A DNA stretch of 52,302 nucleotides from Gemmatimonadota bacterium (GTDB taxonomy: Bacteria; Gemmatimonadota; Gemmatimonadetes; Gemmatimonadales; Gemmatimonadaceae). Shown one piece after another: positions 12,001-40,806 of this stretch. The stretch lies in assembly GCA_016218305.1 (NCBI GenBank), contig JACREJ010000021.1, positions 1-52,302 on the forward strand, read 5' to 3'. The translations under genes were made by a program, and so were the position numbers. The notes beneath the pieces are model-generated. The model did no database searches. It was not told where the DNA came from and saw only the letters and a list, made by a program, of their open reading frames with translations. Each line of letters opens with the position of its first letter. Position 1 is the first letter of the stretch.

Positions 12001-12178
12001 ACGATGGCGGCGGGAGGTGGATTGGGGATTGGGAGCTCGGATTTGGATTGCGATTGGGATAGCGATCTGGATGGCGATGGGGATGGGTGATCGCAATCGC
12101 CGATCCCAATCACAAACCCCCATCGCCAATCACGATCGGGAATCCCAATCCGAGCTCCCAATCCCAATTCGTCGGTTC
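12001..12178. repeat. Word-repeat palindrome filling the larC-thrC gap
   Basis: Nearly the whole 197-nt gap is an imperfect palindrome built from variants of GATTGGGA, GATTGCGAT and GGATGGCGAT on the left arm and their complements on the right. A perfect 16-nt pair sits in the outer part: ATTGGGAGCTCGGATT (12028-12043) with AATCCGAGCTCCCAAT (12147-12162). The two arms meet near 12088. It probably terminates thrC transcription. No open reading frame or promoter was recognised in it. Confidence 0.75.
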
Positions 12179-13321
12179 TCAGAACCTGTAGCTAGCCCCC
12201 GATCCCGTATTGAACACCACGACCGTCGCATTCGGGTGCAGCCGGCCGGTCTTGACGAGCTGTGCCGTCGCGGCCAGCGCGCAGCCGCCTTCGGGCGCCG
12301 CATCGATGCCGCCGCGCGACGCAAGCGTGAACGTGCCTGCCCGGATGCCATCCTCATCCACGGCCTCGGCGTCGCCGTGGCTCTCGCGCAGTGTGCGCAG
12401 CGTCCAGCGATCGCCGAACGGCCCCGGCACGCGCAGCCCGCTCGCGTGCGTCACGGGATTCTCCCACGGCGTCGCCTTGTCCTCGCCGGCGTGGAACGCG
12501 CGCACCAGCGGCGCGCACCCCGACGCCTGCGCGATGATCATCCGCGGTTTCACGGTGTCATTCGGCAGCCATCCCCACTCGATCATCTCGCCGATCGCCT
12601 TCCAGATGCCGATGGTCCCCTCGCCGCCGCCAGTCGGATAGATGATCGCGTCGGGCAGGTCCCAGCCGAGCTGCTCGGCGACCTCGTAACCCATCGTCTT
12701 CATCCCTTCCACGCGATAGGGCTCGCGCACCGTGGCGACGTTGAAGTACCCGCTCTCCTTGCAGAACTGCATCGTCGCCTTGCCCGCGTCACCGATGTGG
12801 CCGTCCACGAGCTCGAGTTCCACGCCGTACGCGCGGATGCTGGAGAGGATGGGCGGCGGCGTCGTGCGCGGCGCATAGATGCGCGCCGGGACGCCACCGG
12901 CCGCCGCGTAGGCGGCGAGCGCGATGCCCGCGTTGCCCGCCGTCGGCACCGAAAGGCCTGGCAAGCCGAGCGCCTTGGCGCGCGTCACGGCCATCATCAA
13001 GCCGCGCGCCTTAAAGCTCGCGGTGGGGTTCTGCCCCTCGTCCTTCACCCAGAGCTTCCGCACACCGATCTCGCGCGCGAGTTCCGGCAACTCCAGCAGC
13101 GGCGTCGCGCCCTCTCCCAGGCTCACCGGGGCGTCGCCGGGCAGCATGGGAAGCGCCGCCGCGTAACGCCACAGCGACCACGCGCCGCTCACGGAGGCAC
13201 GCGAAACAGCGGCATCGTAGCGGACGCTCAGCGGTTGCGCGCATTGGGGGCAGAGCGAGGCCAGCTTGTCACCCGGCGCGGAATAGCCGCAGCCGGTGCT
13301 GCAATGCAGAGTCCAGGACAT
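12179..13321 (-). CDS. thrC: Threonine synthase
   Basis: This 380-residue PLP enzyme converts O-phosphohomoserine to threonine. An N-terminal zinc-ribbon-like segment has Cys7, Cys11, Cys24 and Cys27. The PLP lysine is in PTASFKARG and the phosphate-binding loop is GGGEGTIG. The start ATG 13321 (MSWTLHCSTGCG) is chosen because it places the ribbon at the N terminus; the frame is open for 16 more codons upstream across low-complexity sequence and lacks a good ribosome-binding site. It could also be a related PLP lyase, but the ribbon and the motif set favour ThrC. No other threonine genes are nearby. Confidence 0.88.
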   Translation of the reverse strand: MSWTLHCSTGCGYSAPGDKLASLCPQCAQPLSVRYDAAVSRASVSGAWSLWRYAAALPMLPGDAPVSLGEGATPLLELPELAREIGVRKLWVKDEGQNPTASFKARGLMMAVTRAKALGLPGLSVPTAGNAGIALAAYAAAGGVPARIYAPRTTPPPILSSIRAYGVELELVDGHIGDAGKATMQFCKESGYFNVATVREPYRVEGMKTMGYEVAEQLGWDLPDAIIYPTGGGEGTIGIWKAIGEMIEWGWLPNDTVKPRMIIAQASGCAPLVRAFHAGEDKATPWENPVTHASGLRVPGPFGDRWTLRTLRESHGDAEAVDEDGIRAGTFTLASRGGIDAAPEGGCALAATAQLVKTGRLHPNATVVVFNTGSGASYRF

Positions 13322-36662: not shown

Positions 36663-36680
36663 CGCCCCTCCGCTATAAAC

Positions 36681-36753
36681 CCCTTCCCCTTCCCCTGCAC
36701 CACACCCTGCTCCCTGTTCCCTGCACCACACCCTGCACCCTTCCCCTTCCCCT
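36681..36753. repeat. Pyrimidine-rich direct repeat with A-B-B-A arrangement between lysS and the Lol genes
   Basis: CCCTTCCCCTTCCCCT occurs at 36681-36696 and 36738-36753. Between them CCCTGCACCACACCCTGC occurs at 36693-36710 and 36719-36736. All copies are in the same orientation. The last copy overlaps the stop codon of lysS at 36752-36754. The plus strand is almost purely pyrimidine plus a few A and G. Confidence 0.8.
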
Positions 36754-38266
36754 ACTCTGGCCTCATCGTCGGAAACAGAATCACATCCCGAATATGTGCC
36801 GTGCCGGTGAGGTACATGAACAGCCGGTCCATCCCCACGCCCACGCCCCCCATCGGTGGCATGCCGTACTCCATGGCGCGCAGGTAGTCCTCGTCCACGC
36901 CCGAAGCCTCCTCGTCGCCCGCCGCCTTCAGCGTGGCCTGCGCCTCGAAGCGCTGCCGCTGGTCGATGGGATCGTTGAGCTCGGAGAAGGCGTTGGCCAT
37001 CTCCTTCCCCTTGGCGAACATCTCGAACCGCTCCGTCAGTTCCGGATTCCCGCGCTTCGGCTTCGCCAGCGGCGACAGTTCCTTGGGATAGTCCACCACG
37101 AAGGTGGGCCGGTCGATCTTGCTCTCCACGTGATGCTGGAACAGTTCGTCCATCAGCTTGGGCCGCGACAGCGACGCGATGCCGTGCACGCCCGCGTGCT
37201 CGGCCGCTTTGCGGAGCTCGGCGTCGGTCAGCTTCGTCACGTCGGGGACGCGCAGCGCCTGCGACAGCGACGGCAGCCACTCCAGGCGCGGGAACGGGCC
37301 CTCCAGCACGGCCGGGTCGAACGCCGGCGCCTCGGAGGCCAGTCCCGCCGCCGTCAGCGAGTCGCGCACGGCGGTGGCCGCCGCGATCATCAGGGCCTCG
37401 ACGCGCTGCATCATCACGGTGTAATCGGCGTACGCCTCGTAGAACTCGAGCATCGTGAATTCCGGATTGTGCGTCCGGTCGGTGCCCTCGTTGCGGAAGT
37501 CGTGCCCGATCTCGTACACGCGGTCGAAGCCGCCCACCACGAGCCGCTTGAGATACAGCTCGTCGGCGATGCGCAGGTACAGCGGCATGTCAAGCGCGTT
37601 GTGGTGCGTCACGAACGGCTTCGCCGCGGCGCCACCATACAGCGGCTGCAGCACCGGCGTCTCCACCTCGAGGTAGCCGAGGCCGTCCATGAAGGCGCGC
37701 ACCGCGCTCGTCATGCGCGACCGCGCCGCGAAGAGCGCGCGCACCTCGGGATGCACGGCGAGGTCGGCATACCGCTGGCGCGACCGCTGCTCGCCGTCGG
37801 CAAACGCCGAATGCCGCACCACCGCGCCGTCCACCACTTCTTCCTTGCCGAACGGGAGCGGGCGCAGCGACTTCGCCAGCAGCTCGACGTGCTCCACGTG
37901 CACCGTCACCTCGCCGGTGCGCGTGCGGAAGAGCGGACCGCGCACGCCGATGATGTCGCCGAGGTCGAGCAGTTCGCACAGCGCCCACAGCGCCTCGCCC
38001 ACCACGTCCTTCTTGAAGTAGAGCTGCACGCGCCCCGAGGGATCGCCCAGGTGCGCGAAGGTCGACTTGCCGTGGGCGCGCCACGCGACGACGCGTCCGG
38101 CCAGCTGCACCACCGGCCCCTCGGCCGCCTCACCCAGCAGCGCCGGGCAGGCCGCCGCCAGGTGCTGGCGGTCAAAGCCGTAGCCGAACGGCGCCACGTT
38201 CAGCGCCTGCAGCGCGGCCAGCTTCTCGCGCCGCGCCTGCAGCACGTAGTTCAGTTCGTCGCTCAT
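36752..38266 (-). CDS. lysS: Lysyl-tRNA synthetase (class II)
   Basis: This 504-residue enzyme has the N-terminal OB-fold anticodon-binding domain (about 50-150) and the class II catalytic core. Motif 2 is [20 protein letters not shown] and motif 3 is [14 protein letters not shown] near the C terminus. It charges tRNA-Lys. It overlaps prfB by ATGA. Length and architecture are normal. Confidence 0.97.
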
Positions 38267-39379
38267 CGATCCGCTCCCGCGTTGCCCGCCACCTTGAGGT
38301 AGGCCTCGATGAACGGGTCGATGGCGCCGTCCATCACCTTCTGCACGTCCGTGATCTTCAGTTCGGTGCGATGGTCGTTGACCATCGTGTACGGCTGGAA
38401 GACGTAGCTGCGGATCTGGCTGCCGAACGTGACGTCCGCCTTGTTCGCGTCGAGCTTGGCCTTCACCGCCGCCTGCTTGTCGAGCTCCATCTGGTACAGC
38501 TTGTTCTTGAGCTGCTTCATCGCCTGCGCCTTGTTCTTCCCCTGGCTGCGCTCCTGCTGGCACGCCACCACGATGCCCGACGGGATGTGCGTCAGCCGCA
38601 CCGCCGAGCTCGTCTTGTTCACGTGCTGGCCGCCGGCGCCGCTCGCGCGGAAGACGTCCATCTTGATGTCCTCTTCGCGCACTTCGATGTTGATCTCCGT
38701 GTCCACCACCGGATAGACGAAGATCGACGCGAAGCTCGTGTGCCGCCGCGCCTGCGAGTCGAACGGCGAGATGCGCACGAGCCGGTGCACCCCCGCCTCG
38801 GGGCGCAGGAAGCCGTAGGCGTAGCTCCCCTTGATCTCGAGCACGGCACCCTTGATGCCCGCTTCCTCGCCCTCGCTCAGGTCGAGGATCTCCACTGCGT
38901 AGCCGCGGCGCTCGGCCCAGCGCGTGTACATGCGCATGAGCATCTGCGCCCAATCCTGCGCCTCGGTGCCGCCGGCACCGGCGCTGATCTCGACCTGCGC
39001 GTCGCGGAAGTCGTCGCGCCCCTGCAGCAGCGACCGCAGCTTGAACGCCTCGACTTCCTCGACGAGCGCCGCCGTCTCGCGATCCACCTCGGCGATCATC
39101 TCCGCGTCCGGCTCGCTGGCGAGCATCTCGTCGAGCTCGAGCGCCGACTGCACGCGCCCCCACAGCTTGTCGAACGGGTCCACCCACGCCTTCAGCAGCT
39201 TCATGTCCTGCACCGCGGCCTGGGCGCGCTCGGGCGCGTCCCAGAACCCCGGGGCAGTCATCTCCGTCTCGAGTGCCGCGAGCCGAGCCCGCTTGCCCTC
39301 GAGGTCAAAGGAACCTCCGCAGCTCGGTGAGTCGTGACTCATCCAGACGCAGGGTCCTGCTGCGATCGCTTTCTGCCAT
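38263..39379 (-). CDS. prfB: Peptide chain release factor 2, expressed by programmed +1 frameshift
   Basis: RF2 terminates translation at UGA and UAA. The body starts at DLEGKRARL and contains the SPF tripeptide (VRISPFDSQARRHTS) and the GGQ loop (SGAGGQHVNKTSS). The first 24 codons from ATG 39379 (MAESDRSRTLRLDESRLTEL, then RRFL) end at an in-frame TGA at 39305-39307. The frame then shifts +1 to GAC at 39304-39306 and continues for 347 residues, 371 in total, the usual RF2 length. A continuous ORF that starts further upstream in the shifted frame is probably an artefact. lysS follows with an ATGA overlap. Confidence 0.95.
39304..39318 (-). promoter_or_regulatory. Programmed +1 frameshift site of prfB
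   Basis: The minus strand reads GGAGG-TTC-CTT-TGA-C. GGAGG (39314-39318) acts as an internal Shine-Dalgarno-like stimulator three nt before the slippery CTT (39308-39310) and the TGA stop, the same geometry as the classic E. coli prfB site. Scarcity of RF2 should slow termination at TGA and promote the shift, giving autoregulation. Confidence 0.92.
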
Positions 39380-39445
39380 GCTGTGGGGGAGCGTAGTGAG
39401 GGAGTGACCAGAGGGTGCCGATCTGTGAAAGCTAATCGGCTAGCA

Positions 39446-39558
39446 GACAAACAACAGAGAGACCACAGAGAGAAAACAGAGAGACAACAGAGTCCCCACC
39501 CTCGGGAGTACTGTTGTCTCTCTGTTGTTTCTCTGTTGTCTCTCTGTTGTCTCTCTTA
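39446..39558. repeat. Large word-repeat palindrome between the zinc-ribbon gene and prfB
   Basis: Left arm 39446-39492 reiterates ACAACAGAGAG and near variants. Right arm 39511-39558 reiterates CTCTCTGTTGT. The arms are nearly perfect complements over about 45 nt and flank an 18-nt loop. The right end includes the TAA stop of the zinc-ribbon gene (39556-39558). It should act as a terminator. The rest of the gap (39380-39445) shows nothing clear, and no promoter for prfB was identified. Confidence 0.85.
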
Positions 39559-40806
39559 GAAGATTTTCTTGCCACCCGCCAAGATGTCGTTCAGTGCTTC
39601 CTGGAAGTGGTTCGTGCTCTCGGCGAACTCCTTGCCGATCTGGTCGCAGAACTCCTCGTAGCTCTTCTTGATCTCCTCGCGGAAAATCTCCTTGAGCGTC
39701 CCGTTGGCCAGTCCCTCCTCACGCTTCTGGGGCAGGTAGGCCACCATGTCCGACACCAGCGCCCGCGCGAGGCGCTTGGCCTTCTGGTTCGGATCGTTGT
39801 TGAGGAACGGGTTGATGACGCGCCGCGTCCCGCTCGGCGTGCCGGCTGGCACCCCTGCGGCGGGTGTCGCGGGCGCGGGCACCGTCGCGATGGGCTGCGT
39901 CTTCCCCGGATCCAGCGCGGGCGCAGCCGGTGCAGCGGGAGCCGCCGCGGACGAGGCGGGCGCGGGCGGCGTCGCCATCGGCGGCATCATCCGCGGCTGC
40001 GTCGTGCGGGGCGTCGGCGGCAGTCCAGCGGGCGGCATTCCCGCCGGCGGCACCGGCGGCGATGGCATCATCGGCGAGGCCGCCCCGGGGCGCGTCGGCG
40101 CTCCGGGGGGCATCGGTGGCATGAAGCCGGGGCGTCCGGGTGCGGCCGACGGCGGCGGCGCCGGCGGTGGCGCGGCCGGAGGCGTCCCCATCAGGGGCGT
40201 GACCATTGTGGGTCGGAGCCCCGGCGCGCCCGCACTGCCCGCAGGCGGCACGGGGGGCGTCGGACGGCTCCATGCGGGCGCGGCCGGCGCGGGCGCCACA
40301 CGCGGCACGGGCGCGGCGGGAGACGGCGCGACGGGCCCAGGGGCCGGCATCGCCGACAGGATCGGCGTCGGGGCGGCAGAACGCGTGGGCGTGAACGGGC
40401 CCGGTGCCCCCGGACGCGGCGGCGGCGGCGTGGCGCCGCCCGGCATCGGTGGCGGCAGCGGCGGCATGGTGGGACGCGGAATCGCCGTCACCGGCGGTGG
40501 CGCGGGTGCCTCAAACGCGGGCCCCGGAGCCGGGGCGGGTGTTGCGGACTCAGGCGTGAACGAGGGGCGTGCCGCGGGACCGGACACCCGGGGCGCCGCG
40601 GGCGGCTCCGGCACCGGCGCCATCGGCCGAACGGCGGTGGGCGGCATCGCGGTGCGCGCCGTGTCGGGCGCCGCCGCGGTCGCCGCCGGCGGCGCAATGG
40701 TGATCACGCCCCCGCACACCGAACATCGCGCGCGCACTCCGACCGTCGGCACCTTGGACGGGTCCACGCGGAAGACTGAGCGGCATTCAGGACACGAGAC
40801 GTTCAC
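39556..40806 (-). CDS. MJ0042-type zinc-ribbon protein with long Pro/Ala-rich linker
   Basis: This 416-residue protein starts at GTG 40806 with an N-terminal MJ0042-type zinc ribbon (CPEC at 5-8 and CSVCG at about 28-32). Roughly residues 40-325 are a low-complexity linker of Pro, Ala and Gly with few charges, and the C terminus (about 326-416) is a conserved helical domain (PNQKAKRLARALVSDM and EEIKKSYEEFCDQIGKEF). The whole should be cytoplasmic. Function unknown; similar zinc-ribbon proteins occur in other didermic bacteria. It overlaps the GGDEF gene by GTGA, suggesting a shared signalling role. Confidence 0.85.
   Translation of the reverse strand: MNVSCPECRSVFRVDPSKVPTVGVRARCSVCGGVITIAPPAATAAAPDTARTAMPPTAVRPMAPVPEPPAAPRVSGPAARPSFTPESATPAPAPGPAFEAPAPPPVTAIPRPTMPPLPPPMPGGATPPPPRPGAPGPFTPTRSAAPTPILSAMPAPGPVAPSPAAPVPRVAPAPAAPAWSRPTPPVPPAGSAGAPGLRPTMVTPLMGTPPAAPPPAPPPSAAPGRPGFMPPMPPGAPTRPGAASPMMPSPPVPPAGMPPAGLPPTPRTTQPRMMPPMATPPAPASSAAAPAAPAAPALDPGKTQPIATVPAPATPAAGVPAGTPSGTRRVINPFLNNDPNQKAKRLARALVSDMVAYLPQKREEGLANGTLKEIFREEIKKSYEEFCDQIGKEFAESTNHFQEALNDILAGGKKIF

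Follow-up and report, generated by a model that had tools for sequence, protein, structure and literature searches.

Tandem-word palindromes and arrays behind stop codons in a genus of Gemmatimonadaceae

Short tandem words dispersed between genes are typified by the STRR (short tandemly repeated repetitive) heptamers of cyanobacteria, which the intergenic arrays in the genome of the uncultured Gemmatimonadota bacterium considered here (G000) resemble in this regard. The closest precedent for these Gemmatimonadaceae arrays is furnished by the dispersed, intergenic repeats GGGAATC of Xanthomonas and GGGGA(C/T)T of Nostoc (Rehm et al., 2015; PMC4692102): they lie on the sense strand within 50 bp behind stop codons, occur as inverted pairs and have a mode of four units, a number which those authors tied to quadruplex formation while leaving the function open. 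The G000 arrays share with them a dispersed intergenic tandem word, the preference for four units, the post-stop sense placement, the inverted pairs and a variable unit number at conserved junctions. However, Xanthomonas and Nostoc each have one G-rich 7-mer per species, whereas G000 has an 11-mer devoid of G-tracts along with several other words; moreover, only in G000 do we see a GC hairpin core and the replacement of words at orthologous junctions with the matching of the arms kept.

Other systems are more distant. The TAACTGA heptamer repeats of Beggiatoaceae, cyanobacteria and Bacteroidetes (MacGregor, 2015; PMC4679880) likewise consist of a single word in many small tandem arrays between genes, but they are direct, almost never inverted, and in a Beggiatoaceae genome mostly situated just before start codons. 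Bidirectional intrinsic terminators are comparable in being post-stop stem-loops between convergent genes with a purine-rich 5' and a pyrimidine-rich 3' side, and a survey of inverted repeats found peaks 50-80 bp past bacterial stop codons that were attributed to terminators (PMC13155455); the tandem-word stems of G000 are, however, far longer, their U-tract is weak or absent and they include single-arm forms. Similarly, REP/BIME elements are extragenic palindromes that follow stop codons, also within operons, but the G000 elements differ from them in lacking the REP consensus, in having tandem-word arms and in the absence of a RAYT transposase from the genome. In the literature searched for Gemmatimonadota repeats and for the word itself, we found no description of these arrays.

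The element that we began with lies in the window, i.e. the whole stretch of 52,302 nucleotides that was analysed, which is contig C81 of the 2.0-Mb, 92% complete G000 assembly. It comprises two 46-nt arms (39445-39490 and 39511-39556) that are 89% complementary, are separated by 20 nt and constitute the longest inverted repeat detected within these 52 kb. Tandem Repeats Finder resolves 3.8 copies of ACAACAGAGAG, an 11-nt unit without any GG, at 39451-39492 and 4.2 copies of CTGTTGTCTCT at 39511-39556. A preliminary description had spoken of a near-perfect 45-bp palindrome of tandem words: the palindrome is real, but its pairing falls short of near-perfect, the left or A-type arm (+ strand; about four partly degenerate units) being more degenerate than the right, with ACCACAG and AAAACAG variants. 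The core between the arms (39491-39510), earlier seen as an 18-nt unrelated loop, is indeed a loop; it spans about 20 nt and is not wholly unrelated, because a 4-bp GC inner stem forms inside it in the predicted fold, although the core at this site folds no better than shuffles. As anticipated, the predicted RNA fold of the site is strong: the - strand RNA reaches -77.4 kcal/mol as against -38.3 +/- 4.0 for dinucleotide shuffles (z -9.9). An Rfam scan of the window recovered rRNAs only. As a circular word, ACAACAGAGAG (39451-39556) is identical when reversed; hence, control patterns made by reversal hit it too. All three sense frames of the array are free of stop codons and spell the cyclic 11-residue peptide RDNRETTERQQ, which is the same in each since the unit length of 11 is not a multiple of 3; nothing favours its translation, and the earlier view that the array is not decayed coding sequence was upheld.

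As had been claimed, the palindrome begins at the stop codon of a zinc-ribbon (PF13717) protein gene with a conserved C-terminal domain (39556-40806, - strand): the right arm abuts this codon (TTA at 39556-39558, UAA on the - strand) and reads, in the sense of the mRNA, UAA-GAGAGACAACAGAGAGACAACAGAGAAACAACAGAGAGACAACAG, with four units immediately after the stop. The order on the - strand is thus the UAA, four AGAGA(G/A)ACAAC units, the short core, the complementary arm, the motif TTAGCTTTC (39427-39435, adjoining the left arm on its outer side and presumably part of the promoter of the next gene) and prfB, which encodes peptide chain release factor 2 (38263-39379, - strand). With these features in direct succession, the palindrome fills the space between the zinc-ribbon stop codon and the presumed prfB promoter. 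This is a codirectional junction, yet both arms are present. The prfB gene has the +1 frameshift site CTTTGAC at 39304-39310, and its start at 39379 leaves 24 codons ahead of the in-frame UGA; the segment 39304-39379 (- strand) has the form of a classical +1 programmed frameshift, with GGAGG ahead of CUU UGA C. The CTTTGAC motif also occurs behind the zinc-ribbon gene in nearly all related loci. Most congeners have TTAGCTTTC at this junction whether or not they carry an array; in two of the three array-free ones it lies only 39-52 nt downstream of the stop.

The window palindrome is one of dozens of such elements in the G000 genome, and its word is confined to one genus of Gemmatimonadaceae, which includes Gemmatimonas sp. 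PR.004 among its named members. Searches with the two-unit word gave about 200 matches in the 2.0-Mb assembly (up to 3 mismatches, overlapping windows); with no more than 2 mismatches allowed, it abounds in seven of the 11 genomes of the genus, has a single match in two, is absent from two and was recovered in none of 49 genomes from other genera. Copy numbers are lower bounds and some arms may be truncated by assembly, since certain contigs end inside arrays, as seen at the end of G000:C19 and the start of G006:C100.

To characterize the placement of the arrays, we sampled from G000 20 stretches picked for the word and 20 not picked for it, plus the window, calling genes with a custom codon-usage caller that is adequate for stop positions and crude for starts. 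In the window and the word-chosen stretches, wherever both arms occur, the order is A-type and then T-type, and the arms run in the mRNA sense, mostly 4-7 nt after stop codons. The word stands behind the stops of 34 genes, of which 21 lie at convergent junctions and 13 at codirectional ones, against two antisense-only cases. Exactly four units are found in 35 of the 44 G000 arms; in the related genome G006 the mode is again four but the distribution is broad. At convergent junctions an arm of the same word follows each gene, and it is because both genes carry an arm that a palindrome results. Codirectional gaps shorter than about 120 nt in G000 have single arms, behind which lies either an ordinary hairpin or the next gene itself, while larger gaps often have both. 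Thus, the palindrome is genuine but is not the unit of the class, which is the sense-oriented post-stop array, conserved single arms included. A DNA uptake sequence, of the kind that forms inverted-pair terminators in Neisseria and Haemophilus, was rejected, there being no excess of single copies (two single occurrences at up to one mismatch as opposed to 30 clustered sites within some 393 kb). One exception to the post-stop rule is a two-armed array between genes called as divergent (L013, 10335-10505). Separately, pyrimidine-rich CTCCCATCTCCCATC arms occur directly before starts (L083 upstream of 185, L065 upstream of 151); they are the antisense counterpart of the post-stop word, and the like has been reported for Xanthomonas.

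At least seven additional words follow the same grammar in G000. Within the window, an element with the word CGAAGGGCGCGAAGGGG (2104-2228; arms 2104-2138 and 2194-2228) lies at a convergent junction, another with GGATTGGGATT (12020-12170; arms 12020-12049 and 12141-12170) lies behind the stop codon at 12179 (-), and a G-rich array of GGGGAAGGGGAAGGGTGCAGGGTGTGGTGCAGGG (36680-36751, - strand) directly follows the stop of the gene at 36752-38266 (-). The G006 orthologue of this last array has a related but different word. Besides ACAACAGAGAG, the post-stop words of the genome include GGGAGAT, GGTAGAC, GATTGGG, CGAAGGGCGCGAAGG, GGAGTGGAG/GTGCAGGGG, GTGCAGGGTGTGG and CACGGAGG. Of the 231 stops with a gap of 50 nt or more, 89 are followed by an assigned word family, compared with 18 in the antisense reading. 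Tandem arrays occur at 37% of the convergent and 18% of the codirectional stop edges of G000, versus 5-6% of start edges and close to none in shuffles; even in the stretches not picked for the word they mark 17% of stop edges versus 0-2% in shuffled and 0% in coding sequence. Of 55 stop-edge arrays, 53 have a purine-rich outward strand, and a single word family serves both sides of 18 of the 19 convergent junctions at which both could be assigned. The median RNA z-score of the 140 nt after stops is -10 with arrays (n=33) and -1.9 without (n=17).

We then compared orthologous junctions. In eight of ten orthologous cases, G000 and G006 have the array behind the same stop codon, and the unit number varies among relatives as proposed: the window site has 4/4 units and its G006 counterpart about 8/12. 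At other sites the word is replaced, with family 5 giving way to the window word, the window word to GCGCACGA and family 7 to family 6. At five convergent junctions traced across the genus the words of congeners differ and the arms still match; for instance, one such junction has ACAACAGAGAG in two species and GACGGGA, GATGGCC, GATGGCA, GATGTGG and GGCCGA in five others. In 68 of 71 comparisons at the five convergent sites, and in 13 of 21 at prfB, the left arm is a closer match to the right arm of its own species than to that of a different one; as only species with arm scores above the cut-off enter, which biases the comparison toward within-species matches, these counts speak of matched change and not of its rate. 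The preliminary description had looked to close relatives for a loss of complementarity across a retained gap: at the prfB junction the arms remain complementary in every arm-bearing congener, with a different word in G003, while G004, G008 and G009 have the gap but no array. More distant Gemmatimonadaceae have still other words there, or none. Arrays are hence dispensable site by site, given that some congeners are without them at the same junctions. GC hairpin cores are present at most sites, persist through changes of the word and occur at some array-free orthologues. Single sense arrays, which form no hairpin, are likewise conserved between G000 and G006, also inside operons.

Taken together, sequence comparisons define the array as stop-adjacent, purine-rich in sense, usually of four units and sharing its word with that of a facing convergent gene; it flanks a short core, often a GC hairpin, and across congeners its word changes while complementarity and position are kept. 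In the predicted structures the arms are able to form a long RNA hairpin. We give an even chance to the proposal that the palindrome is a tandem-word extension of an mRNA 3'-end hairpin that insulates neighbouring genes and/or protects the 3' end. Upon transcription, the arms would fold into a long hairpin, which might stop or insulate transcription between the neighbours, in both directions at convergent junctions, and/or shield the end of the mRNA; arm length could rise and fall through slippage, with the arms kept matched by selection for pairing and/or hairpin-mediated template switching. Pairing, position and core favour this, whereas the functional steps are ones that we infer. The predicted folds share with intrinsic terminators a stable stem-loop with a GC-rich core at a putative transcript end. 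U-tracts of the classical kind are weak: a permissive scan gave two terminator-like matches at the window site versus 0.4 +/- 0.6 in shuffles, the tail is pyrimidine-rich with no long T run, and the tract is missing altogether from other words (CCCATCT). Hairpin formation is not the whole story, because the conserved single sense arrays form none: within an operon or before an ordinary terminator such an array might act as an unstructured, C-poor spacer after the terminating ribosome. Something additional, perhaps such a spacer or a Rho-related valve, is suggested by the weakness of the U-tract together with the conservation of single arms.

A different, rather unlikely account is that the arrays are selfish or mutational repeats, functionless sequences that propagate by copying or template switching and pile up behind stop codons, where insertions are tolerated, with the arms matched by hairpin-mediated correction. 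It gains from words that are common to dozens of loci and yet limited to the genus, from the variable unit number and from a near-empty site at one G004 junction, where just 12 nt separate the two stops. Moreover, at two convergent sites (L020/L149 and L010/L150) G000 and G006 have the core in opposite orientations, which suggests recombination between arms. What such spread does not predict is the sense orientation, the purine polarity common to unrelated words, the four-unit mode and the direct contact with stop codons. Known vehicles are also wanting: RAYT-type (Y1_Tnp) transposases have matches in two of the 11 genus genomes and are absent from nine, and the RVT_1 reverse transcriptase is absent from ten, G000 lacking both; dispersal in G000 by a REP/RAYT system or a reverse transcriptase was accordingly rejected.

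Another possibility, which we judge unlikely, is that the arrays are one-way valves for Rho: the purine-rich, C-poor sense strand would block Rho loading behind the ribosome, and the rut-like antisense strand would terminate transcription entering from the 3' end. The antisense strands CUCUCUGUUGU and CCCAUCU are C-rich and G-poor. Among post-stop arrays the sense strand has more G than C in 43 of 50 cases, as compared with 34 of 74 post-stop regions that have no array; the sense orientation is nearly universal, and a valve would also explain the single arms, which are conserved in operons. Yet wherever both arms exist the hairpin would tie up the C-rich RNA, the antisense of the window word has only a mild excess of C over G, and the words GCGCACGA and TCTAGAGTC of relatives are not C-poor. 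We consider it improbable that the elements act on the DNA level, as cruciforms, protein roadblocks or binding arrays: the DNA strand at the window site folds with z -10.7 and the 11-nt period is near one helical turn, but other words have periods of 7-10 nt, single arms cannot extrude, and orientation relative to the mRNA is better explained on the RNA level. G-quadruplex elements, as proposed for Xanthomonas GGGAATC, can be dismissed for the window word despite the same grammar there (four units, sense strand near stops, inverted pairs; PMC4692102) and the G-tracts of the G000 words GGGAGAT and GATTGGG, as ACAACAGAGAG has no GG and still displays the four-unit mode and placement.

Since ACAACAGAGAG cannot form quadruplexes, the placement and the number four need a reason other than the quadruplex. 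We tentatively suggest, as a possibility that falls somewhat short of even, that in bacteria of this lineage the 3' ends of genes are marked by sequence-independent tandem-word modules in which the stop-adjacent position, sense, about four units and pairing are selected while the word is free; this would account for the roughly eight words per genome and the different words at orthologous stops, and would make the published four-unit G-rich repeats one case of a wider, non-quadruplex phenomenon.

These arrays separate the post-stop repeat grammar from the quadruplex idea under which it was first described. The genus offers a natural experiment on 3'-end function, in which eleven related species differ in the word, if any, that follows the same stops, and the arms change in concert across species. 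If the arrays are selfish, then reaching dozens of stops in sense orientation would need a copying mechanism that is not a known one; if they insulate or protect transcripts, they would constitute an unannotated layer of gene-end control.
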